Shown here in pieces: positions 3,166-31,738 of a stretch of DNA of 56,889 nucleotides. Source of the DNA: a virus; IMG/VR virus record IMGVR_UViG_3300042465_004126, positions 1-56,889 of that record; one strand, written 5' to 3'. The notes beneath the pieces are model-generated. The model ran no database searches and was not told where the DNA came from. It saw only the letters and a program-made list of their open reading frames with translations. A program made the translations under genes and the position numbers. Position 1 is the stretch's first letter, and the number at the start of each line of letters is the position of its first letter.

Positions 3166-3332
3166 GCGAGATAGACATCCGATTGACAAGCCATGAGGCC
3201 GTTTGTGCAGAGCGGTATGCACAGATCAATGCAAGGCTCAAGCGGCTTGAGGGTGTGATTATGAAGACTACTGGCGTCTTGATTGTCAGTATGTCAGCAA
3301 TCGTTTACGCCTCTCTGACCTTTGGGCGATGA
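3162..3332 (+). CDS. Small membrane protein of the lysis cassette
   Basis: This 56-residue ORF (MSEIDIRLTSHEAV...) starts inside the stop of the tail chaperone (ATGA). A charged N-terminal helix of about 35 residues (YAQINARLKRLEGVI) is followed by one transmembrane segment of about 18 residues ending YASLTFGR. This layout, amphipathic helix then one C-terminal TM, is that of XhlA-type hemolysin/holin accessory proteins, although identity at this length cannot be proven. Two more small membrane genes, a holin and an endolysin follow, so a role in host lysis is likely. Confidence 0.6.
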   Translation: MSEIDIRLTSHEAVCAERYAQINARLKRLEGVIMKTTGVLIVSMSAIVYASLTFGR

Positions 3333-3333
3333 A

Positions 3334-3486
3334 GTGGACCTCTTTGAAGTCCTGTCCAAATCATGGCCGATCCTGCTGGCGCTGATCACTTTGATCATCG
3401 TCTTGGCAAAGCTAGATTTGCGCGTGGCGGTACTGGAAGAGAAGATCAAGGCTCTATTTGAAATGTGGAATAGGCGGGACAAGTGA
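3334..3486 (+). CDS. Small single-TM protein, GTG start
   Basis: A 50-residue ORF begins with GTG one base after the preceding stop. It has a strongly hydrophobic segment WPILLALITLIIVLAKL (about residues 11-27), then a charged helix LEEKIKALFEMWNRRDK. Its stop overlaps the GTG start of the next gene (GTGA). One TM followed by a charged coiled helix, inside a lysis cassette, suggests a holin accessory or pinholin-like protein. No family was recognised. Upstream TTG 3322 in the same frame is a less attractive start. Confidence 0.5.
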   Translation: MDLFEVLSKSWPILLALITLIIVLAKLDLRVAVLEEKIKALFEMWNRRDK

Positions 3487-3938
3487 TTGACGTAACAAAA
3501 GCCATAGGAGCAGTCGCAGCCAGCATTGCAGCTATTGGCGGCGGTTACACGCTTGCAGACAAGTTTGGTTGGTTTGACCGGGCTATCCTTGAATGGTCAC
3601 CAGAGCATTTTAAGATTGTGGCCGAAGCAGGAAAGCCTATCAATGTGACAGTGGCCCGGATCAAAAAGCGGGACGATTGTTCGGTGGAGAGTTTTACCCC
3701 AAGCATCCGTGACGCCGCAGGCATGGTGCATGAGGCAACGACAACGGCAAGTAAGTTCAGTGGCCCCGCTGGGCCAACGATTGATACGTTTACATACCAA
3801 CTCACGATGGTGAGAAAAGAGAAGATTGCACCCGGCACAGCCACACTGCTGGCGACGATCAAGTACAAGTGCCCGGAGGGTGAACGTGTTGTGCAATACC
3901 CCCGCCATGCAAACCTGAGTTTTGATTTAAAGGGCTGA
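3483..3938 (+). CDS. Membrane-anchored protein of the lysis region
   Basis: The 151-residue protein starts with GTG (MIDVTKAIGAV...) overlapping the previous stop. Residues about 7-27 form an Ala/Gly/Ile-rich TM or signal anchor. The remaining ~120 residues look like a small beta domain (FKIVAEAGKPINVTVARIKK, TFTYQLTMVRKEKIAPG, VQYPRHANLSFDLKG) containing two cysteines. N-in/C-out topology would place this domain in the periplasm. No family was recognised. Its position before the holin makes envelope disruption or a lysis accessory role plausible. Confidence 0.5.
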   Translation: MIDVTKAIGAVAASIAAIGGGYTLADKFGWFDRAILEWSPEHFKIVAEAGKPINVTVARIKKRDDCSVESFTPSIRDAAGMVHEATTTASKFSGPAGPTIDTFTYQLTMVRKEKIAPGTATLLATIKYKCPEGERVVQYPRHANLSFDLKG

Positions 3939-9310: not shown

Positions 9311-10846
9311 ATGAATAAGCAAGAAATCCTAGAGATAGCTAAAAAAGACTCACGCTTTTCGCAAGCTGTGCTTGCTGTTGAACAGCAAATGGGTGATACG
9401 GATATTGCACCGGAGCAGCTTGATGAGATGGTCAAGATGCTTGAGTTTGCGCTCAACAACAAAGACCGATACCCAGAAATTAGGGAAGCTCTGATCAAAG
9501 ACAAGCTGGTTAATGCTGAGGACATGCCTGAGCAATTTAACCCTGTGGTCTTGATCTCCGTACTAGTCGTGTTGTATGGCTTGCAAGAGAGGTCTACGCA
9601 AAAAATGGCTCGTGGCGGTCTAGCATCTGCCGCTCGTCAGCTTCGCAAAGCCGGGCGCAGCGGTGACACGATGCTAGCGCACATCAACCCACGTGAAGCC
9701 CAGATGCTTCGCCAAGCTGGTGGCAGCGGGACAATCAATCCAAGCACGGGCTTGCCTGAATATTTTAGTTTTGGCGACTTGTTTAAAGTGGTTTTGCCGT
9801 TTGCTATAGATCTTATCGCTCCTGGCATAGGTTCTACGCTGGGTACAGCACTCGGTGCATCTGCATCATTTGCTCCGGCTCTAGGCGGTGCATTGATTGG
9901 TGCTGGCACGTCTGCTATAACTGGCGGCAACCCGCTCCAAGGCGCAATCATGGGCGGCATGGGCGGCGGTCTTGGCAATAACCTTGGACAAATGGTTGCC
10001 CCCAGTGCAAGCGCAGCCACTCAGGGTCTACTTGGTAGTGGGCTTGCCGGGGCTGTGGGTGGTATGGCTACTGGTCGCGGCCCACTTGAAGGTGCTGCCC
10101 AAGGCGCTTTAGGAAGTTACCTTGGGAATGCAGTAGCCGGTGCAGGAGCTCAAGGCGCTCTTGGCACAGGCTTAGCGGCCGGCAGTGAGAATTTTAAGAA
10201 TGCAATGGTAGCTGGCTACGACCCGCAGACGGCTTTGACCAGCGGCGCTTTGTCAGGCTTGGCTTCAAGCATGCGTAAACCGTCGCAAGCGGCGGTTGAT
10301 GGTTTGAGCAAATCGGCCACCAAATCAGGTTTTGGTTTTGACAAGATAGGTGCTTTACTGCCCCTTGCTGGTTTGCTATCAGCACCTAATGAAGCCCAGA
10401 CAGCTGTCAAGTCCATGTCGCCTGAGCAGCAAGAATACTTTAACCGTCCATCCATTAAATGGGACTGGTCAAAAATGCAGCAGGACGCTGCCAAATCCAA
10501 CATGAGCCTTAGCCAGTTCATGGCGCAAAGTTGGCCACAAATTACCTCAGGAACTTATAATAAGCCAACAGGTATGGCTCGGGGTGGTCCGCTATCAAAA
10601 ATGGCTTATTTTGCTGAGGGTTCCGGGTCTGGCAGGGAAGACACGATTGATGCCAAAGTCTCTGATGGGGAGTACGTTTTTGATGCAGAAACGGTGGCAC
10701 TGCTTGGTGACGGATCTAGCAAAGGCGGAGCAAAAAAACTTGACCAAATGCGCCAAGAAATCCGGAAGCACAAGGGCAAATTATTGGCAGCAGGTAAAAT
10801 TAGTTCTGATGCCAAGTCTCCACTTTCTTACATTCGGGGGATATGA
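9311..10846 (+). CDS. Internal virion protein with Gly-rich membrane-like core
   Basis: The 511-residue protein starts at ATG 9311, with AGGA 6 nt upstream, rather than at an earlier in-frame start. It has a helical acidic N-terminus (1-85), one hydrophobic segment (VVLISVLVVLYGL), and a long Gly/Ala-rich region (about 165-310) resembling membrane-inserting segments of ejection proteins. The C-terminal module MAYFAEG.GSGREDTIDAK, SDGEYVFDAETVALLGDGSS and AKKLDQMRQEIRKHKGK recurs in many virion proteins of environmental podoviruses. Two ARGG motifs are present. It is probably ejected with the DNA. Confidence 0.65.
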   Translation: MNKQEILEIAKKDSRFSQAVLAVEQQMGDTDIAPEQLDEMVKMLEFALNNKDRYPEIREALIKDKLVNAEDMPEQFNPVVLISVLVVLYGLQERSTQKMARGGLASAARQLRKAGRSGDTMLAHINPREAQMLRQAGGSGTINPSTGLPEYFSFGDLFKVVLPFAIDLIAPGIGSTLGTALGASASFAPALGGALIGAGTSAITGGNPLQGAIMGGMGGGLGNNLGQMVAPSASAATQGLLGSGLAGAVGGMATGRGPLEGAAQGALGSYLGNAVAGAGAQGALGTGLAAGSENFKNAMVAGYDPQTALTSGALSGLASSMRKPSQAAVDGLSKSATKSGFGFDKIGALLPLAGLLSAPNEAQTAVKSMSPEQQEYFNRPSIKWDWSKMQQDAAKSNMSLSQFMAQSWPQITSGTYNKPTGMARGGPLSKMAYFAEGSGSGREDTIDAKVSDGEYVFDAETVALLGDGSSKGGAKKLDQMRQEIRKHKGKLLAAGKISSDAKSPLSYIRGI

Positions 10847-23468: not shown

Positions 23469-23810
23469 TTACGCTGCGGAATCGAAACCCCGAGCCTCAG
23501 GACTAAAATCCCAGCGACGCGGAATATACACAAACTCATTACGGTCCCAACTGAGCGTGGTGATGATATCATCAAACTCAGAAGCCACCTTGATACAAAT
23601 AGCACATAAAGCGGGATCACCTATCATTAAAATTGAGTCTCCGGGCTGCCAGTCGGACAATACACGCCGTGCGTGCTCTATCATGCGGGGGGTGTTGTAG
23701 CTTCTCCCCACCGCACTAAAGACATCCAACAGCCGCCCGAACTGCTCGGCTGCTTTTAAGTCTTTGCGCTCATGTGCATGAGCCACGAAGACAGTTCGTT
23801 CATTTCGCAT
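23469..23810 (-). CDS. Conserved hypothetical protein beside DNA polymerase
   Basis: The 113-residue protein MRNERTVFVAHAHERKDLKAAEQFG... overlaps the 3' end of the DNA polymerase gene by 11 bases. A GTG 27 bases upstream would add a Lys-rich segment; ATG 23810 with AAGGA upstream is preferred. Blocks RRVLSDWQPGDSILMIGDPALCAICIKVA and FVYIPRRWDFSPE are distinctive. Its mixed alpha/beta pattern and invariant position next to polymerase in such operons suggest a replication accessory role, but no domain was recognised. Confidence 0.6.
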   Translation of the reverse strand: MRNERTVFVAHAHERKDLKAAEQFGRLLDVFSAVGRSYNTPRMIEHARRVLSDWQPGDSILMIGDPALCAICIKVASEFDDIITTLSWDRNEFVYIPRRWDFSPEARGFDSAA

Positions 23811-25629
23811 TTTTGCTTTTCCTTTCTTTTTTGACACTTGAAATCATTTGCTGTTCATCCAGCGTTAAATAATAGAAACAGCCGCAGGCTTGTGCTATTT
23901 TACAGGCCTCTCGGTAGTACCATGTATAGTCTAGATCAGCGGGTTTACCCACGGGCAGTGCCATGCAAGCTCGAGCGCCTTCGGTCTTAGGCACTTTATT
24001 TCCGTTCTTAACATACCGTAGCGGCTCTAACCCTAACTGGTTTGACATATACCACCGGACCACTTTACCCAAATACTTGCCGCCCTGCTGCCCGCCCCCA
24101 GTTACGTTGCGGGCGCTTATAAAACCCTCAAAGCCTGCGTTTTGTATGGTTTCGAGCAGCGGCGTGCCTGCGGCTAGCCATTGGCCTACAGCGTCCGCAC
24201 AAACCTGTGCAGTGGCGTTTTTATTGAGGCTGAGAGGGGCGTAGATGCCCTTGGCTTTGAGTTTGCGGTCGGTCTTGACTGCGAAGTAATTGTTGACGTC
24301 TTTCATGGCCAACACGCGGTACGGGGTAAACTCAAAATCAAAACCTGAGACCTGACCAAACCGAGCAACAACCCGCGCAACGTCCGCCTGCAGCGCCTGC
24401 GGGTAGCGCATAGCAAGTCCGTCGGTGTTAGCCGACAACGTGACTGCCCCTAGGTGCTCGAGCCATTCAATCAGCATCAGCAGCGTAAACTGGCCGGTTA
24501 ACGTCACCGCCAGCATGAGGTCCGGTGCGTAGAGCACGCTCCAGCGGCTGGCGAGCTTGCCGAATGTGCCGTTCAAACTGATCTTTAGGGTGGCATCGGT
24601 GATCTTGTCTTTGGCCTTCTTAGCGGCGAGCCGCTGCTCGTAAATCGTGCGGTACTCCGTAACAAATCGGGTTCCGAGCCCGGAAGGCACAAACCCACAC
24701 TCAAGGATTATGCTCGGGTAGAAACTAGCAGCGTCGATGTCGGTGATAACATCATCCCCCGCCACGTGGCAAACCGACTTGTCATGGGTGCTGTGAATGC
24801 CCCCAACCCCGAGCTGGTAAGTGCCGGCCCGGAAAGTCACCACCTCAGCCCCCAGGAAGTCCGGCAAGATGACATGCCCAGTAGCTTGATTCATGTCAAA
24901 CACATGCTGTGCGGTACGCTCGAGCAGCGCTTGCAACTCGGGCGTCTTAAACTTGAGGAACGCGGGCGGCTTATAGGTTATGGTCTTAGGGATGGTGTTG
25001 TCGGCACGCTTCAAACCCATTGTCGTTATGTATGCCTGCTCCGCCATTTGAGAGTCCGACTTGCTACGCATGTCGACCCCATATTGCTTGCTCATCTTCA
25101 CGCGGAGCATTAACTCCCCGTCGAGCCGCTTGAGCAACTCCTCCGTAGTGTCTAGGTCATTCACGTTGTATGTGTCAACCATAAGCCGCTGCTCAGGCGT
25201 GATTAACGCGTCATGCGCTATCGGCATGTCCTGCAGCAGCGGCATGTGCATGCGAGCGCCGTAGGCTTTCAAGCTCACAAACGACGGTGCGACCTCAATC
25301 AAGTCAATGCTGTCAAAACCCAGCTGGGGTAGGTTGTACTTGCGTGCCGCAGCCCAAGACTGAAGCCGGTTAACGATGAGGTCATCTGCGATACGCTTCA
25401 TCTCAGCCTCAGTTCGCCCCGCCACAAAAGCTGCAACAATGACGTCGTCAAAAAACTTGTTGTTAAACCCAACAAACGTCGAATCTGGTTGAATGAGAAA
25501 CTGTCGCAGCCGCTCAGCCGCACGGTCCTCATTCCGACGGATTTGCGTGACCTCGCCGGTGTCGACATTCTTGAAGCCGACAACGGTGTAGTTCACTAGG
25601 GTTTCGCAGTCAAACACGTAAGTGCTCAT
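23800..25629 (-). CDS. Family B DNA polymerase with 3'-5' exonuclease
   Basis: The 609-residue replicative polymerase has an N-terminal exonuclease with FDCET (Asp7, Glu9), VGFNNKFFDD (55-62) and YNVNDLDTT (154-162). The polymerase domain has motif A DIDAASFYPS (297-306), motif B KISLNGTFGK (349-358) and motif C SANTDG (399-404). Asn replaces the first Asp of the usual DTD in motif C. It is much shorter than cellular family B enzymes but similar to protein-primed and other phage forms; no terminal-protein gene was recognised. It would have to accept 5-hydroxymethyl-dUTP if the modification pathway works as inferred. The start overlaps the DUF3310 stop (ATGA). Confidence 0.88.
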   Translation of the reverse strand: MSTYVFDCETLVNYTVVGFKNVDTGEVTQIRRNEDRAAERLRQFLIQPDSTFVGFNNKFFDDVIVAAFVAGRTEAEMKRIADDLIVNRLQSWAAARKYNLPQLGFDSIDLIEVAPSFVSLKAYGARMHMPLLQDMPIAHDALITPEQRLMVDTYNVNDLDTTEELLKRLDGELMLRVKMSKQYGVDMRSKSDSQMAEQAYITTMGLKRADNTIPKTITYKPPAFLKFKTPELQALLERTAQHVFDMNQATGHVILPDFLGAEVVTFRAGTYQLGVGGIHSTHDKSVCHVAGDDVITDIDAASFYPSIILECGFVPSGLGTRFVTEYRTIYEQRLAAKKAKDKITDATLKISLNGTFGKLASRWSVLYAPDLMLAVTLTGQFTLLMLIEWLEHLGAVTLSANTDGLAMRYPQALQADVARVVARFGQVSGFDFEFTPYRVLAMKDVNNYFAVKTDRKLKAKGIYAPLSLNKNATAQVCADAVGQWLAAGTPLLETIQNAGFEGFISARNVTGGGQQGGKYLGKVVRWYMSNQLGLEPLRYVKNGNKVPKTEGARACMALPVGKPADLDYTWYYREACKIAQACGCFYYLTLDEQQMISSVKKERKSKNAK

Positions 25630-26045
25630 CGGTCTTGGTTGACGTAGCCGGAGCCTGGGTTTGAACCTTCATACTCCGCAATGAGGGCCGCGAGTAAGTG
25701 CCGAGCAGCCTTCAGCTGCCCGAGTTGCGTCCACTCAAACACAACGTGGATGATGGCGGTCTCAAGCCCGACGATGCCGTTCTCGGCTAAAAACTGGGCA
25801 ACCTCGACACGAGGAACCGGGTTGCCGTGAGAGCCTGGTTGCGCAGAGCGCACCTCGATCAATTTCTGCAGGTAATGGTCAGCCTTTTGCAAGTCCTGCA
25901 GGCCGTTCTTCTTACGAAACCGGGACAAGTACTTGGTGCAGCAGCCCTCAAGGTAACCTACACCCCAAGTGTCAACGATGTCCCAATGCTGTAGGGTAGA
26001 TTGGTAATGCGAGCCCGCAACTTGGCGGGCGTTGGCGGAAATCAT
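25626..26045 (-). CDS. DUF3310 protein (phage nucleotide-kinase-like)
   Basis: The 139-residue protein contains QVAGSHYQSTLQHWDIVDTWGVGYLEGCCTKYLSRFRKKNGLQDLQKADHYLQKLIE, the complete DUF3310 signature. The C-terminal ~60 residues form a second helical segment. DUF3310 proteins are common in phage replication regions and often annotated as nucleotide-kinase-like, without firm biochemistry. It lies between HD nucleotidase and polymerase with 4-base overlaps on both sides, suggesting a role in nucleotide supply. Confidence 0.8.
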   Translation of the reverse strand: MISANARQVAGSHYQSTLQHWDIVDTWGVGYLEGCCTKYLSRFRKKNGLQDLQKADHYLQKLIEVRSAQPGSHGNPVPRVEVAQFLAENGIVGLETAIIHVVFEWTQLGQLKAARHLLAALIAEYEGSNPGSGYVNQDR

Positions 26046-26533
26046 ACAGGTACCCCCTGTTTGATGAGTTCGAAAAGTTCACGCTCGCGGCCAACCAACA
26101 CCATATCAAAAGCGTAGCGGTAGTAGCGGTCAAAAACGGACCGCATGCGGGAGTTGCCCAAGGCGAGATCCCGAGCACAGAACATCGCCCCTTGGGCTAA
26201 GTCAGCCAACTTAAGAATGCGTGCTTCTTCAAGGGTAAGCATAGGGAAATCGATACCCACCGAGCGCATTATCTTGGCCTCCATAGCGGATACCTGGTCG
26301 CTGATGCCGAACTGGCGCTTAGCTGGGCTGGGGATGTCCCCCGTCACCTGCTCAGCGAGGTCATGCAACAGCGCGGCCATCAATAGCTCTCGACTGGCGT
26401 TAGGGTCAATCAAGGTGCACAGCAGCGCGACTTGGTGCGAGTGGTGCCCGACGGTCTCCTGTTGCAATGTGCGCACCGTGTGGTAGCGCAGCACATCCGC
26501 CCCTGCGGCAAAGAAGTCGAGTCGCTCTTTCAC
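26042..26533 (-). CDS. HD-domain 5'-deoxynucleotidase (YfbR-like)
   Basis: The 163-residue protein has an HD phosphohydrolase core: GHHSHQVALL (His33), LLHDLAEQVTGDIPSPAKR (His57-Asp58) and LKLADLAQG (Asp111). The length and the EQVTGD.PSP.KR block match YfbR-type 5'-deoxyribonucleotidases, which remove phosphate from dNMPs. The start is GTG overlapping the upstream stop. Between a thymidylate-synthase homologue and the polymerase, it could deplete dTMP/dUMP pools so that modified nucleotides win; this is inference. Confidence 0.78.
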   Translation of the reverse strand: MKERLDFFAAGADVLRYHTVRTLQQETVGHHSHQVALLCTLIDPNASRELLMAALLHDLAEQVTGDIPSPAKRQFGISDQVSAMEAKIMRSVGIDFPMLTLEEARILKLADLAQGAMFCARDLALGNSRMRSVFDRYYRYAFDMVLVGRERELFELIKQGVPV

Positions 26534-26817: not shown

Positions 26818-27813
26818 TTACTCTTTCCCGGAGCGGATTAGGTCTCTCTTATCAATCCAGTCAAAACAGGCTCGACGCCAGTCATCTGCACGCACCTTAG
26901 CGGCCCAGCCCCGCCCGTCACCGGCGTGAATTTTACGCACCCGGCTGACCATTGCCATAGGGTGCGCGACGTGCTTGAGGAACGGGTGCGTATAGGTTGC
27001 CTCCTGGTTAAACGGGTCATCACAGAACCGCTCGCAGTCAACCAAGAATGACTTATATTCCCCGTTAAGCATGAGCGGAGAGGGTCTAATTTTTCCCGAG
27101 GAGTAATGGTCGTAGTCTTCAGCCATCGGCGGTTGTGACACGTAATGTTTGGCCTCATACAGCTCGGTGTAAAGATGCAAATTGTTGCTGATTTGACGGT
27201 AAATTCCAGGACGCAGGCCTACAGAACATGCAATAAACTCTTGCAAAATGCTAAAATGGACCGAGTTAGCCCCGTATGCCCCCCACCAGATATCATTTGA
27301 ACGGTTTAGTACGGTCATGTTCAGCCGACCGCCCCGAGTGTCAAACATCACCTGCGTGTTGCAGGCTTTGTCCCGGGTGCGTCGGTTCAAGTCCACGGGG
27401 TCCCAAATCTGCATGACAGCCTGCCGAGTCTTGGGATCACGCCGTAGCAGGTTGATGACGTCTACAATCTGGTCCCGTCCGAAGTGCTTGCGCAGTCGGT
27501 AACCATAGGCCGCGTTGTACACTTTGCCGTCATCGGAGTACTGCCCGATGCGGCTGTTGAACTGCTGCAGGAAAGCGACATCCCGCCGCCCCGCTAATAT
27601 CCACACGCTCTCAAGTAGATGAAAAATAGGGTTAGCGTCCCGCCCCAAGTGAAACAACACTCGCTCAACTGGGCAGTCGTAAGTGGTAATTACCGGCTCG
27701 GGTATAACCAGCGCGGGCCCGTTGCGCGTGGGCTCGGGCTTTAGACCTTCGGCGTTAAGGCGCCAAAATATCTCGCTGAATGCCTGGTTCACATTGCGGA
27801 CTTTAATTTCCAT
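26818..27813 (-). CDS. Thymidylate synthase family; probable dUMP hydroxymethylase
   Basis: The 331-residue protein has the thymidylate synthase core: catalytic Cys151 in DKACNTQV, NRSNDIWWGAYGAN (170-183, including the RS.D phosphate/base motif and Asn183) and NNLHLY. Asn at 183 favours a uracil rather than a cytosine substrate. The motif WWGAYGAN in place of the usual LGLPFN separates it from host-type enzymes. Coupled to probable 5-hmdU kinase and transferase genes, it most likely makes 5-hydroxymethyl-dUMP from dUMP and methylene-tetrahydrofolate. ATG 27813 is chosen for AAGGAG 8 nt upstream; TTG 27819 lies too close. The family is certain; hydroxymethylation is inferred. Confidence 0.8.
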   Translation of the reverse strand: MEIKVRNVNQAFSEIFWRLNAEGLKPEPTRNGPALVIPEPVITTYDCPVERVLFHLGRDANPIFHLLESVWILAGRRDVAFLQQFNSRIGQYSDDGKVYNAAYGYRLRKHFGRDQIVDVINLLRRDPKTRQAVMQIWDPVDLNRRTRDKACNTQVMFDTRGGRLNMTVLNRSNDIWWGAYGANSVHFSILQEFIACSVGLRPGIYRQISNNLHLYTELYEAKHYVSQPPMAEDYDHYSSGKIRPSPLMLNGEYKSFLVDCERFCDDPFNQEATYTHPFLKHVAHPMAMVSRVRKIHAGDGRGWAAKVRADDWRRACFDWIDKRDLIRSGKE

Positions 27814-27815
27814 GC

Positions 27816-28745
27816 TCAAAACTCCTTCTCAGGTATATAAGTGTTTTTAGGTTTGCCCTCACCCAGCACCGTGCGGCAGTATTTACTGTACTCACACATG
27901 CAGTTCTGCACGTCGTGCAGCGTTAAGTCAGTTATGTTCAATTCGTTCGCGATGCTGTTATTTATATCTTGTAACGCTGAGGTGAACCCGCCTGATTTCC
28001 AAGCCGCAAACGGTGCCCGCCCATGCAAGTAATTTAACCCCCGCAGGCTCCCCGGTCCCATAGGGGCATAGCTATAAAGGTCTGCCGCGCAGCTGAGGTG
28101 GCTATCTGGGTGATAAGTGAGGTCAGCGGCTACTTGCCCGGCCATGAACGTGCTAACGCCGAAACACGTGGATAACGCAGCGACAAACCTTTCAATGCTA
28201 CCCCCCGCCTCCAAGTCCTCTCGCCAGAGCTCATTATGGATAAGAGAGGCGTTTTGAACCACGCTACCGATAATGTACTTGGCCACGGTGCGAGCTTTGT
28301 TGATACCCGGGTTTTTAGTGGGGTAGAGCATATATGCCCCCGAATACACTTTAACCCCGGTAGCACGCAGAGCCTCAAGCACCGACTCAAACCGGGCGGC
28401 ATCGAACTTCGCAGGCGAGCATGGTAGAACCCCCGACTGAATCAAAGCCTGCAGGGTTGGGGGCCAGTTTACTAGGCGAGCCACCAACAACGTGAACCAC
28501 AAATCAAGCCGGTTCTCGTTAAGTTGCATCAAGTGTTTGATAACCCACTGAGAGACTCGGTCATCCCGGCGACGGATGTTGGTGAACTTGTACTTCTGCA
28601 GTACGGGGTCGGCGGTCCAGGGTGCGGGGTGCCCGTTCTCTTTTGCTAAACGAATGGCCTCTCGCTCCCAGATGAAATACAGCAAGCCCGGCATCGAGCA
28701 TACGGTTTCTGCAGTGGGGCGGGGGTAAGGGCAAGACCCAATCAC
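27816..28745 (-). CDS. HMUDK_hel / aGPT-Pplase-type thymine hypermodification protein
   Basis: The 309-residue protein has the family signature FIWEREAIRLAKENGHPAPWT.DPVL (24-49) followed by KFTNIRRRDDRVSQW (53-67). It ends with LHDVQNCMCEYSKYCR and GEGKPKNTY. These blocks define the helical domain related to DNA glycosylases that Iyer and colleagues described in alpha-glutamyl/putrescinyl-thymine pyrophosphorylases and in 5-hmdU DNA kinase fusions. It would act on phosphorylated hydroxymethyluracil in DNA, possibly as DNA-binding partner of the kinase upstream. The start is GTG overlapping the kinase stop; ATG 28694 is an alternative. Exact reaction not proven. Confidence 0.72.
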   Translation of the reverse strand: MIGSCPYPRPTAETVCSMPGLLYFIWEREAIRLAKENGHPAPWTADPVLQKYKFTNIRRRDDRVSQWVIKHLMQLNENRLDLWFTLLVARLVNWPPTLQALIQSGVLPCSPAKFDAARFESVLEALRATGVKVYSGAYMLYPTKNPGINKARTVAKYIIGSVVQNASLIHNELWREDLEAGGSIERFVAALSTCFGVSTFMAGQVAADLTYHPDSHLSCAADLYSYAPMGPGSLRGLNYLHGRAPFAAWKSGGFTSALQDINNSIANELNITDLTLHDVQNCMCEYSKYCRTVLGEGKPKNTYIPEKEF

Positions 28746-29323
28746 TGCTCAGCCCCCCGCAAGTAAACCACCACCCCGCCCACCGCATCGGTATAATCGA
28801 GCCAGCGCACATCGTACCCCCCGGCCAGCGTCAGCAGCTCAGCGCTGCGGTGGCATTGCTCATACGCGCTGCGCATAGTCTTGCCAGGGTCGAACATTTT
28901 ATCGTTACCAGCTGCGGCGCGACGCTGTAGCACCCGCTCCAGGCAGGTCTCCCACGGGGTGTCCAGGAACGCAAAGATGGCGCCATGGTCTTTGAGGATA
29001 GGGGCTACGTGGCCGCCCGCGCTGGACTTGCTCATAAGCAGCCCTTCAACGAGCACGTGCCCTAGCGCATGGGCTTTGACTACACGCCCGGCAATCTCCT
29101 CCTGCGTGTTGATACCGTCGGTGCCGCCGCAGGTGTTCTCGTAACTGCCGACCACAAAGACCGGCACCGAGATACCCCAAGCGGAGGCGTCCACAGTGTA
29201 CCCAGCGGGGCGACCCGGCTTACCCCCGAGGGGTTGACAAGGTAGCCGATCCAGGAACCGACGCACGATGGTGGTCTTGCCCGAGCCGTTGCAGCCTCGA
29301 ATATTGACGATTTGGTGTTTCAT
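28742..29323 (-). CDS. P-loop kinase, probable 5-hmdU DNA kinase
   Basis: The 193-residue kinase has Walker A GCNGSGKT (residues 10-17) directly after a first strand QIVNIR. Later blocks are VGSYENTCGGTDGINTQEEI, LVEGLLMSKS and AFLDTPWETCLERVLQRR, a lid-like Arg-rich segment. Phage 5-hydroxymethyldeoxyuridine DNA kinases are P-loop enzymes of this size that phosphorylate the hydroxymethyl group in DNA before transfer of an amine. Operon position between two thymine-hypermodification proteins supports this over a generic nucleotide kinase. The leader TATAACGGAATAACTGA before ATG is a variant of the operon-start leader. Confidence 0.72.
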   Translation of the reverse strand: MKHQIVNIRGCNGSGKTTIVRRFLDRLPCQPLGGKPGRPAGYTVDASAWGISVPVFVVGSYENTCGGTDGINTQEEIAGRVVKAHALGHVLVEGLLMSKSSAGGHVAPILKDHGAIFAFLDTPWETCLERVLQRRAAAGNDKMFDPGKTMRSAYEQCHRSAELLTLAGGYDVRWLDYTDAVGGVVVYLRGAEQ

Positions 29324-29327
29324 TCAG

Positions 29328-30317
29328 TTATTCCGTTATAAAGTGTTCAAGACGGTATGCTCTACCCGTCTCAGCAAACATTTTAGCCTTATTTGCGCGG
29401 GGTGTTTTCTTTGCGTCGCACTCTACCCGCAGCCAGTCCGGCAGGTGCCCCGCCCGTATAGCTTTAAACGGCTCAGTCTCCCGCTTGAAGTTGCGCTCGT
29501 CATACCACAGGATGCGCTCTTGAGCCATGTCCGCGTAAACGCCTGGGTACCGACGGCTGAAGAACCCATTCTTGAACTGGCAGTACTGGCTCTCAAGGGT
29601 GAAGTAACCCGCATCAGGGTGCTCTACTCCGTTTAAAACCTGGTCTGACTTGTCTCGCAGCCAGTCACACATGCCCGCGAAATTATCGTACTTACCGTCA
29701 AACCCGTTGCCCGCCCGCTTATCAAACACGAGGTGATCCAACCCCTGCAGGAACAGCGCCCCGTTGCGGTGCGACCGGGAGCCGTCAAAGTCTTCAAACA
29801 TGAGGTCAGTGCACGCTGCCCCAAACCCCATTATACGTACATACTCTAGGTATGAGAACGCGCTCAGCCGCCCAAAACTAAATATCTGCGTCGCAGTGTT
29901 CCAGCATTCCTGGTACGTTTTGCCGCTCCAGAGCGCGGCCTGCGACCCCGCTGCGCGGGCGAGTTTGCTGTAACTGTGTAAGGCTTTAAGCGTGTTGCGT
30001 TTGTTCTTGACGCGGTCGGTGTCAAACTGCAGCGTAACCCACTCAGCGTTAAACCACTCGTCTAGCTCCCGCCAGTGGGCGGGCATACGCGGGATCTCTG
30101 GCGACTTGTTAAAGATACGCAAAGAAGTTATGGGGTTCTGGGTGCAGCCGTTAATGACTGCAAACCAGAGCCGTTGCTCAGCACCCCAGCTGTAATGTGC
30201 GGCCAACTCAGGCATGTACAGGTAGACCAACCCGGGCATGACCCGGTGCTCAAGGTTCATCAAATACAGGTCTTTAAAGTACTTGGCTCTATGTTCTTTA
30301 AGGCGATAATCAATCAT
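29328..30317 (-). CDS. Probable amino acid:DNA transferase (aGPT-Pplase superfamily)
   Basis: The 329-residue helical protein contains MPGLVYLYMPELAAHYSWGAEQRLWFAVINGCTQNPITSLRIF (27-69), IFSFGRLSAFSYLEYVRIMGF, HRNGALFLQGLDHL and SQYCQFKNGFFSRRYPGVYADMAQERI. This pattern recalls the amino acid:DNA transferase clade of alpha-glutamyl/putrescinyl-thymine pyrophosphorylases. These displace the pyrophosphate on activated 5-hmdU in DNA with the amine or hydroxyl of an amino acid. The match is from memory of motifs and of context rather than an alignment. It overlaps the 70-residue gene upstream by 4 bases and precedes the kinase by 4 bases. Confidence 0.62.
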   Translation of the reverse strand: MIDYRLKEHRAKYFKDLYLMNLEHRVMPGLVYLYMPELAAHYSWGAEQRLWFAVINGCTQNPITSLRIFNKSPEIPRMPAHWRELDEWFNAEWVTLQFDTDRVKNKRNTLKALHSYSKLARAAGSQAALWSGKTYQECWNTATQIFSFGRLSAFSYLEYVRIMGFGAACTDLMFEDFDGSRSHRNGALFLQGLDHLVFDKRAGNGFDGKYDNFAGMCDWLRDKSDQVLNGVEHPDAGYFTLESQYCQFKNGFFSRRYPGVYADMAQERILWYDERNFKRETEPFKAIRAGHLPDWLRVECDAKKTPRANKAKMFAETGRAYRLEHFITE

Positions 30318-30526
30318 GGTATAACCCCTGCAAGATGAGCCTGGGCATCATCAAAGGCTTCAAACAGGTGCCGGGTGGAGCGGTTTTCTTCAACGTCCTC
30401 CTGGACGTGAGTGAGCAGGGTACTAAGTACCCGCGCAGTGTCCATGTGCTCAGCTATGGCGGCTGCGAGCCGGGTGTCGCCTGAAATGTAAGCCCGCCGC
30501 TCGCGTTCGGTTAAAAGTAATTTCAT
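30314..30526 (-). CDS. Small helical protein within hypermodification operon
   Basis: The 70-residue acidic protein MKLLLTERERRAYISGDTRLAAAIAEHMD... looks all-helical (RVLSTLLTHVQEDVEE, TRHLFEAFDDAQAHL). It overlaps both the PLP enzyme and the transferase gene by 4 bases, so it is translated with them. No family was recognised. Its fixed place between two modification enzymes makes it a candidate accessory subunit or regulator of this pathway. Confidence 0.55.
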   Translation of the reverse strand: MKLLLTERERRAYISGDTRLAAAIAEHMDTARVLSTLLTHVQEDVEENRSTRHLFEAFDDAQAHLAGVIP

Positions 30527-31497
30527 GCTGCCTCCGGGTGTGTGTAGAAAGGCTTAACCACGTTGACATCTGGTGCGCTACCGACTATCCAAAAACCGAC
30601 TGAGTCATTCTTAGGCAGAACATTGCCGAGAACGTTTTGCGCTTTGAGCCAGCGCCACATTTTGGCCTCATACGTGGGGTGAAAGTTGATTCCCGCATAA
30701 GTCTCACCCTTGAAAGCATCGCTGTACTTACTGTAGCCGGTGTCATGTAAGCTGAAGTGCTCCCATTCAAACGGCAGGTTATTAACATCCACCCCGATTA
30801 AATCCAACCTCTCTCGCATCCAGGAGCGTTTGTCAGGGCCAATGCCTAGGGTGAGCAACCGGGATACGCTCCGGGGAGATCTGGACAGCCCGAGGAGTAT
30901 GCTCGTCAGGGAGTTACACGAGCCCGCCGGGGCTATCAACGTAGTAACCTCGTCGGGGAGGTTGGATACCTGGTGTGCGCCGACTTCGTGGAACTTGCGC
31001 ACTGTCTCAGCGTCGTAGGTTTTGTGGTCTACGGTGATGCCATACTCTACGACGAGCGAGTCACCCCGCTTGAGATCGGCCACTTTACGCTGCAGTATGG
31101 GGTTGTACGGCCCGTTGGCGTATTCAAACGCAGCCCCGAAGCCCGCAGCCACTTGTGGGTTGACATGCTTCAACACGGTCTCGGGTTTGCTATAGACGAC
31201 CTGCCGGCAGCGGAGCCCGTAGTGCGCCCCCACAATAGCCGACATGCTCAGCTGCGGGGACTGGATGCTTGCCCCAGTGAGCACGTGCGTCTTGCCACCC
31301 CGGTAGCGGTTCATATACCAGATGAGCTGGCGCATCTTGCTGCCGTTAGGGCCACCGTACCCCAGCGGGGCGAAGTAGTCCTCGCGCTTAAACCAGATGC
31401 CTTCCCGGTTCTGCCACGGGGTGAGCGTGGCCAGTTGGGACTCCCAGGCGAGCTGGGAATGGTTTATAGTGAGAGAGGGGAAGACGGTTTCAATCAT
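30523..31497 (-). CDS. PLP-dependent enzyme, ACC deaminase / D-cysteine desulfhydrase-like
   Basis: The 324-residue fold-type II enzyme has IWFKREDYFAPLGYGGPNGSKMRQL (34-58), which aligns with the IKREDL...GGNKTRKLEY segment of the ACC deaminase/D-cysteine desulfhydrase family. Lys54 is the predicted PLP lysine. A phosphate-binding-loop candidate is LIAPAGSCNSLTSILLGL. In phages ViI and M6, PLP enzymes tailor an amino acid after its attachment to 5-hmdU in DNA; a similar step is likely here. ATG 31497 is preferred over TTG 31527. It overlaps the upstream stop. Substrate and product are unknown. Confidence 0.72.
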   Translation of the reverse strand: MIETVFPSLTINHSQLAWESQLATLTPWQNREGIWFKREDYFAPLGYGGPNGSKMRQLIWYMNRYRGGKTHVLTGASIQSPQLSMSAIVGAHYGLRCRQVVYSKPETVLKHVNPQVAAGFGAAFEYANGPYNPILQRKVADLKRGDSLVVEYGITVDHKTYDAETVRKFHEVGAHQVSNLPDEVTTLIAPAGSCNSLTSILLGLSRSPRSVSRLLTLGIGPDKRSWMRERLDLIGVDVNNLPFEWEHFSLHDTGYSKYSDAFKGETYAGINFHPTYEAKMWRWLKAQNVLGNVLPKNDSVGFWIVGSAPDVNVVKPFYTHPEAA

Positions 31498-31738
31498 TTG
31501 AGGGCCACTCGAGTATTTCGTTTTCAATCCTAGCGACGTCGTCAGCGGTGAGCTTTTTAGCCAACCACGGAGCGGGGCGACCTCGGCGGTCGCAGAGCTC
31601 CCAGTCTATTTCGGAGTAGCCGTGGTAGTCGTGGTCGCTAGCGGCGTGGTAGTTGTAACTACCTTTGACCACATTCACATAGTCAATCCGGGCTGTGCAG
31701 GGTATACCCGCAACCCGAGTCTCCATTAACGTGCTCAC
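31490..31738 (-). CDS. Small hypothetical protein upstream of PLP enzyme
   Basis: The 82-residue protein has the block METRVAGIPCTARIDYVNVVKG followed by a His/Tyr/Asp-rich stretch (SYNYHAASDHDYHGYSEIDWELCDRRG) and a helical end LTADDVARIENEI. Similar short proteins with the VAGIPC..RV and E..W.L.D..G pattern occur widely in phages and prophages, with no known role. The start is GTG with GCAGGAG 8 nt upstream, overlapping the previous stop; ATG 31726 is an alternative. Confidence 0.6.
   Translation of the reverse strand: MSTLMETRVAGIPCTARIDYVNVVKGSYNYHAASDHDYHGYSEIDWELCDRRGRPAPWLAKKLTADDVARIENEILEWPSND

Follow-up and report, generated by a model that had tools for sequence, protein, structure and literature searches.

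The amine-bearing thymine of phage ViI (Vi01) and other Ackermannviridae, 5-(2-aminoethoxy)methyl-dU (5-NeOmdU), reportedly originates from serine, and the 5-NedU of M6 and YuA (Mesyanzhinovviridae) is said to arise via a glycine/radical SAM route, both points being attributed to Lee et al. 2018/2021. In Vi01 and CBA120, 5-NeOmdU takes about 40% of thymine (T), and 60% of the tested endonucleases are unable to cut (PMC11721090). M6-like cassettes include radical SAM and Nmad5 genes (PMC9476957), while among pelagiphages a thymidylate synthase (TS) homologue and aGPT-Pplase1 occur in clades V, VIII and IX, the only two such genes reported there (PMC9599517). Here we describe a six-gene set at 26818-31497 of an uncultivated, freshwater-type phage represented by a single IMG/VR virus record (IMGVR_UViG_3300042465_004126, 56,889 bases, classed as linear; this whole stretch is referred to as the window). 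Judged from sequence, the set is a complete-looking cassette for thymine hypermodification derived from 5-hydroxymethyl-dU (5-hmdU), and its composition is a mosaic of an M6-type front half and a ViI-type back half.

The cassette includes the following genes, given in the order of their transcription:

30523-31497, minus strand: fold-type II pyridoxal phosphate (PLP) enzyme, predicted decarboxylase of a DNA-linked amino acid (phrog_3650, similarity to ViI Vi01_182)
30314-30526, minus strand: open reading frame (ORF) of 70 amino acids (aa), accessory cargo in a variable slot (homologues only in loci L013 and L014)
29328-30317, minus strand: amino acid:DNA transferase (ADDT, aGPT-Pplase2) of the ViI-type clade, predicted to transfer serine to 5-PmdU, the phosphorylated 5-hmdU (PF18724, tree, fold)
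28742-29323, minus strand: P-loop kinase, predicted catalytic subunit of 5-hmdU DNA kinase, class A allele (similarity to M6 gp54 and Sonora)
27816-28745, minus strand: HMUDK_hel (aGPT-Pplase1), partner of 5-hmdU DNA kinase (PF18723, M6 gp55)
26818-27819, minus strand: TS-family protein, predicted dUMP hydroxymethylase (phrog_5131; start at ATG 27813 or TTG 27819)

The original prediction had placed six consecutive ORFs on one strand, overlapping by 4 bases or separated by at most 4, and all six are indeed found on the minus strand at those coordinates. Reading of the junctions gave overlaps between the PLP gene and the 70-aa ORF (30523-30526), the 70-aa ORF and the ADDT gene (30314-30317) and the kinase and HMUDK_hel genes (28742-28745), and a 4-nt gap (29324-29327) between the ADDT and kinase genes. 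HMUDK_hel and TS overlap at 27816-27819 if TTG 27819 is the TS start, or are separated by 2 nt if it is ATG 27813. The PLP gene has its ATG at 31497 and a second in-frame start, TTG, at 31527; the former is the likelier start, as the alignment with most relatives begins only at about residue 8-14.

The three enzymes of the front half are closest to those of M6, YuA and Sonora and closer to M6 than to ViI. In profile searches, the TS-family protein matches phrog_5131 (E 2e-103) and Pfam thymidylate synthase (E 3e-20); it is 42% identical to the M6 TS. Its best PDB match is the CMP hydroxymethylase 5b6d, ranked above every thymidylate synthase, and the catalytic Cys153 and Asn185 are invariant in the alignment. 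The protein is a predicted candidate for dUMP hydroxymethylase. HMUDK_hel (PF18723, E 6e-44, 150.9 bits with a cut-off of 25) shares 32% identity with M6 gp55 (E 1e-42). The kinase, with the Walker A motif GCNGSGKT, is 29% identical to M6 gp54 (E 1.5e-10) and 33% to the Sonora kinase, both homologues occupying the same position, and its AlphaFold2 model (pLDDT 92.3) has a fold similar to nucleoside monophosphate kinases and polynucleotide kinase (PNK). We predict it to be the catalytic subunit of 5-hmdU DNA kinase. The TS homologue, the HMUDK_hel/aGPT-Pplase-type product of the gene starting at 27816 and the P-loop kinase were thus correctly recognised in the original prediction, and the 27816 product does not fall into an unrelated family.

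The back half is of the ViI type. ADDT matches PF18724 (E 8e-12, 45.9 bits with a cut-off of 26.2), and its AlphaFold2 model (pLDDT 93.8) has the PaMx11 5-PmdU glycinyltransferase structures 8z2m and 8z2n as top matches (Foldseek probability 1.00). Superposition on 8z2n gave a VIA-align Z of 16.9 over 247 residues (root mean square deviation 3.9, about 10% sequence identity), the next unrelated row having a Z of 9.3. Wider structural matches include helix-hairpin-helix DNA glycosylases and queuine salvage enzymes, which fits a DNA-base-binding fold. The 29328 product, proposed earlier as a probable amino acid:DNA transferase, therefore belongs to this family and not to an unrelated one. Neither the window ADDT nor a ViI-type profile matched anything when PDB sequences were searched; tblastn with the window ADDT matched the ViI ADDT and gave no match to that of M6.

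In the ADDT tree, which like the PLP tree has long branches and should be read with caution, the window group together with ViI, phiA8-29, VioletZ and Montesquieu is split from an M6-side set (M6, PaMx11, Sonora, RHph_I65, Pam3, PhiW-14 and P26218) with 100/100 support. The motif DxxGSxSxRNG at ADDT positions 176-186 is confined to ViI-type ADDTs among the compared sequences. The PLP enzyme, assigned to fold type II before as well, matches phrog_3650 (E 1e-76), has no Pfam match and shows weak profile matches to 1-aminocyclopropane-1-carboxylate (ACC) deaminase and D-cysteine desulfhydrase. By tblastn it is 32% identical to ViI Vi01_182 (E 1e-55), whereas the match to the M6 PLP enzyme covers 58 aa only (E 0.02). 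Its residues K64, S203 and N205 (numbered from TTG 31527) are common to ViI-type enzymes, and the tree separates these, including the window enzyme, from the M6-type ones (100/100).

Scanning IMG/VR with the PLP gene yielded 111 stretches with a match, of which 80 loci (numbered with L) were kept. The gene is present in at least 80 IMG/VR contigs, mostly within the cassette, and the order PLP-ADDT-kinase-HMUDK_hel-TS-HD-DUF3310-polymerase is found in most of the 80 loci. Since this order recurs and the Pfam and PHROG matches reach E values of 6e-44, 2e-103, 8e-12 and 1e-76, a chance grouping is excluded.

From gene identity and order, clade membership, the ADDT fold, the conserved catalytic residues and the lack of detectable M6- or PaMx11-type tailoring genes, we infer the following reactions, amino acid, product and protection. 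The TS-family enzyme would hydroxymethylate dUMP, and the resulting 5-hmdUMP would be raised to the triphosphate by kinases of the host or the phage, while the adjacent HD hydrolase probably depletes competing dTMP pools. The polymerase would then incorporate 5-hmdU, which would replace part of the T in the DNA, and the P-loop kinase with HMUDK_hel would phosphorylate it there to 5-PmdU. ADDT would swap the phosphate for an amino acid, most likely serine attached via its side-chain oxygen, and the PLP enzyme would decarboxylate it to 5-NeOmdU, so that many restriction enzymes would be blocked. Thymine modification and restriction protection as such would be expected from the homology with M6 and ViI. 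It is probable that the operon makes an amine-bearing thymine and that serine transfer and decarboxylation give 5-NeOmdU, the ViI base. This base rather than the 5-NedU of M6 is predicted because both late enzymes belong to ViI clades and no homologues of M6- or PaMx11-type tailoring enzymes were found. Partial replacement of T is more likely than total, as known relatives replace about 30-50% of it.

Several points weigh against this proposal. The kinase scores below the Pfam cut-off for HMUDK_HMUD1 (PF18748; E 5e-4, 20.0 bits with a cut-off of 27), while M6's own kinase scores 65.1, and sequence cannot separate hydroxymethylase from methylase activity in the TS homologue. Genes could be missing from the record, a linear contig of uncultivated origin. 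Palindrome avoidance was considered as a modification signature and dropped as not discriminating: in the window, depletion is stronger for hexamer palindromes free of T (0.37) than for those containing it (0.80), and likewise in relatives, ViI and PaMx11, but the pattern is opposite in M6, and the control RcHartney, annotated without modification genes, is depleted too (0.03 vs 0.57). CCGCGG, CGCGCG and GCGCGC are absent from the window (1-56889), and TCGA is strongly depleted (0.35). Finally, ADDT is only 26% identical to its ViI counterpart and closer to its nearest named relatives, Mycobacterium VioletZ and Glutamicibacter Montesquieu, and the PLP enzyme is only 32% identical to that of ViI, so that a different amino acid could be used.

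This last distance is the basis of the most likely alternative: the hypermodification is real, but the amino acid is threonine, glycine or another one instead of serine, or the PLP enzyme is not a decarboxylase, so that the base is not 5-NeOmdU and possibly one not known so far. The closest solved PLP relatives, ACC deaminase and D-cysteine desulfhydrase, perform eliminations and deaminations, which agrees with such an account. On the other hand, both ADDT and the PLP enzyme fall into the ViI clade with the ViI invariant residues kept, and in most relatives the ADDT-PLP pair is present without extra tailoring enzymes; we consider this alternative less likely than the serine route.

A degenerate or partial pathway ending at 5-hmdU or 5-PmdU, or a TS homologue simply making dTMP, would agree with the low kinase score and with activities that are not readable from sequence. 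It is improbable, given that catalytic residues are conserved in all enzymes, that the set is intact and in the same order across dozens of relatives, and that in PDB searches a nucleotide hydroxymethylase is closer to the TS than every thymidylate synthase.

An M6-type route, with glycine transfer, radical SAM rearrangement and decarboxylation to 5-NedU, would suit the M6-like TS, kinase, HMUDK_hel and gene order, but ADDT and the PLP enzyme lie outside the M6 clade and no radical SAM gene was found in the record. PF04055 is absent from the record (the controls gave a match in 14/14 genomes), and tblastn with the M6 radical SAM protein found no match in the window or the 80 loci. We rejected this route as highly improbable. 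Nmad5 gave no match, also by tblastn in the window, but the control genomes gave none either, and the PaMx11 gp47 and gp48 (FAD-dependent enzyme and acetyltransferase) gave none in the window or the 80 loci. That the genes serve free nucleotides or metabolism with no DNA modification is hardly credible: relatives of the TS, HD hydrolase and P-loop kinase do function in nucleotide metabolism, but the ADDT fold is that of the solved 5-PmdU glycinyltransferase and HMUDK_hel is a DNA-modification family.

The kinase has a history of its own within these cassettes. Kinase identities among the relatives are bimodal, with class A comprising 24 loci with the window and class B 35 loci. Between loci with 83-97% identity in the PLP, ADDT, HMUDK_hel and TS proteins, kinases of different class are about 48% identical. 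Between L034 (class A, kinase at 3198-3776) and L026 (class B, 10161-10736), nucleotide identity is mostly 80-95% in the flanks, patchy down to 65% in the ADDT gene and 45-69% in the kinase ORF. Set against each other, classes A and B each occupy one side of a supported branch, the class B kinases of L081, L085 and L087 being drawn nearer to A. On the tree of PLP, HMUDK_hel and TS (a quick tree), the class changes 9 times, and at least 7 changes are forced by well-supported branches. By these comparisons, at least seven exchanges of one kinase class for the other have taken place, at gene boundaries. Assembly chimerism is unlikely as the source, each class having turned up repeatedly in independent metagenomes.

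Flodman et al. propose the kinase as the source of the TG/TC context in which modification occurs (PMC6449724). If so, its exchange would alter which thymines are modified. We tentatively suggest that the kinase may be a swappable specificity module and that related phages may in this way direct one and the same hypermodified base to different thymine contexts, comparable to the exchange of target-recognition subunits in restriction systems. Alternatives are that host defence or a partner drives selection on the kinase.

The conserved block continues downstream. The interval 26818-31497, initially taken for the operon, does look complete, but the block is longer and extends through the HD, DUF3310 and polymerase genes (23800-26533), as in M6. 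The neighbouring genes are:

26042-26533, minus strand: HD-domain phosphohydrolase similar to the 5'-deoxynucleotidase YfbR, candidate enzyme for the dTMP/dNMP pool (PF12917, E 1e-10)
25626-26045, minus strand: DUF3310 protein, conserved neighbour (PF11753, E 2e-7)
23800-25629, minus strand: DNA polymerase of the linked replication module (phrog_1252, E 3e-157)
31490-31738, minus strand: YuA Gp49-like small protein, loosely linked, upstream (PF20788, E 2e-18)

The HD phosphohydrolase holds the same position in M6 and in most relatives. DUF3310, like the front-half enzymes, is closest to the M6/YuA/Sonora group (38% identity to M6), and its homologues in M6, Sonora and RHph_I65 occupy the same position. 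The YuA Gp49-like gene is found in only part of the relatives. The polymerase has no match to that of M6, its best matches being phages of Rhodobacter, Pseudomonas and Achromobacter (38-39%); a conserved position has thus seen a non-homologous replacement.

The interval between PLP and ADDT is a cargo slot: the two genes overlap by 4-8 bp in many relatives and are separated by unrelated ORFs of 60-100 aa in others. The 70-aa ORF, listed in the original prediction as a member of the operon, does lie in it but is not part of the core, being shared only with the two nearest relatives, L013 and L014; it has no Pfam, PHROG or NCBIfam match and no phage match. We rejected it as a pathway component, since other relatives have either nothing or small ORFs unrelated to it at this place. 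Ten loci (L036, L039, L042, L051, L054, L070, L071, L073, L078 and L079) have an ORF of 248-256 aa in the slot, whose motif looks methyltransferase-like (VEPFGGCGVFSVA, DFPFF); the one searched, from L073, had no Pfam match. In some relatives (L050, L053, L081-L087), ADDT is far off or inverted; in L050 and L053, in contrast to the remaining relatives, it is upstream of PLP on the opposite strand. L079 (1218-2482) also encodes a TET/JBP-like oxygenase (33% to Mycobacterium VioletZ gp2) adjoining a second, M6-type ADDT, both upstream of the ViI-type PLP/ADDT pair, so that one locus has two transferase types.

Compared with ViI, the window has the same ADDT and PLP clades with their invariant residues, TS, kinase and HMUDK_hel families are present, and no radical SAM enzyme is needed; however, the ViI genes are scattered over 157 kb while those of the window form one operon, the late enzymes are only 26-32% identical and the virion type differs. 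With M6, a siphovirus, the window shares the order kinase-HMUDK_hel-TS-HD-DUF3310-polymerase; the radical SAM, Nmad5 and glycine-type ADDT and PLP of M6 were not found in it. PaMx11 has the same ADDT fold and TS/HMUDK_hel/kinase module, but its ADDT belongs to another clade, and its FAD enzyme and acetyltransferase were not found in the window. Montesquieu has the same set, with ViI-type late enzymes (ADDT 34%, PLP 31%), although its TS (33%) and HMUDK_hel (26%) are distant and it has two kinase-like genes. In L010 (785-3465, VioletZ genes 2-4, annotated as hypothetical or adenylate kinase), a TET/JBP-like protein below the Pfam cut-off, a ViI-clade ADDT and a Ploopntkinase3 are found together. 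From this gene content, VioletZ-type mycobacteriophages are predicted to oxidise T within their DNA and thereby to make an amino-acid-modified thymine. The chemistry itself has been described in other phages; the mosaic of parts and the repeatedly swapped kinase appear, as far as we found, to be undescribed in the literature.

The structural module is podovirus-like, with a portal 58% identical to those of Caulobacter phages RW, KcrB, RLK and GB2A and 34% to that of pelagiphage HTVC023P, and a terminase 47% identical to that of Roseobacter phage CRP-901. None of the cassette genes was found in the examined stretches of RW (48 kb), CRP-901 and ctpbd312, so the cassette was probably acquired on a podovirus-like backbone. 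DNA similarity over the whole operon in cultured phages is limited to 1% coverage, and the window has no tRNA genes. A PADLOC search returned generic helicase matches only. A scan of genome contigs with the PLP gene found no relative and hence no host link.

A large uncultivated podovirus-like group thus very probably carries aminated thymine. The M6-type front and the ViI-type back of the pathway are suggested to be separable modules, and natural pairs of cassettes differing mainly in the kinase, such as L034 and L026, make the question of sequence context in thymine hypermodification testable. If active, the compact five-enzyme set would be a convenient enzymatic route to reactive amines in DNA.

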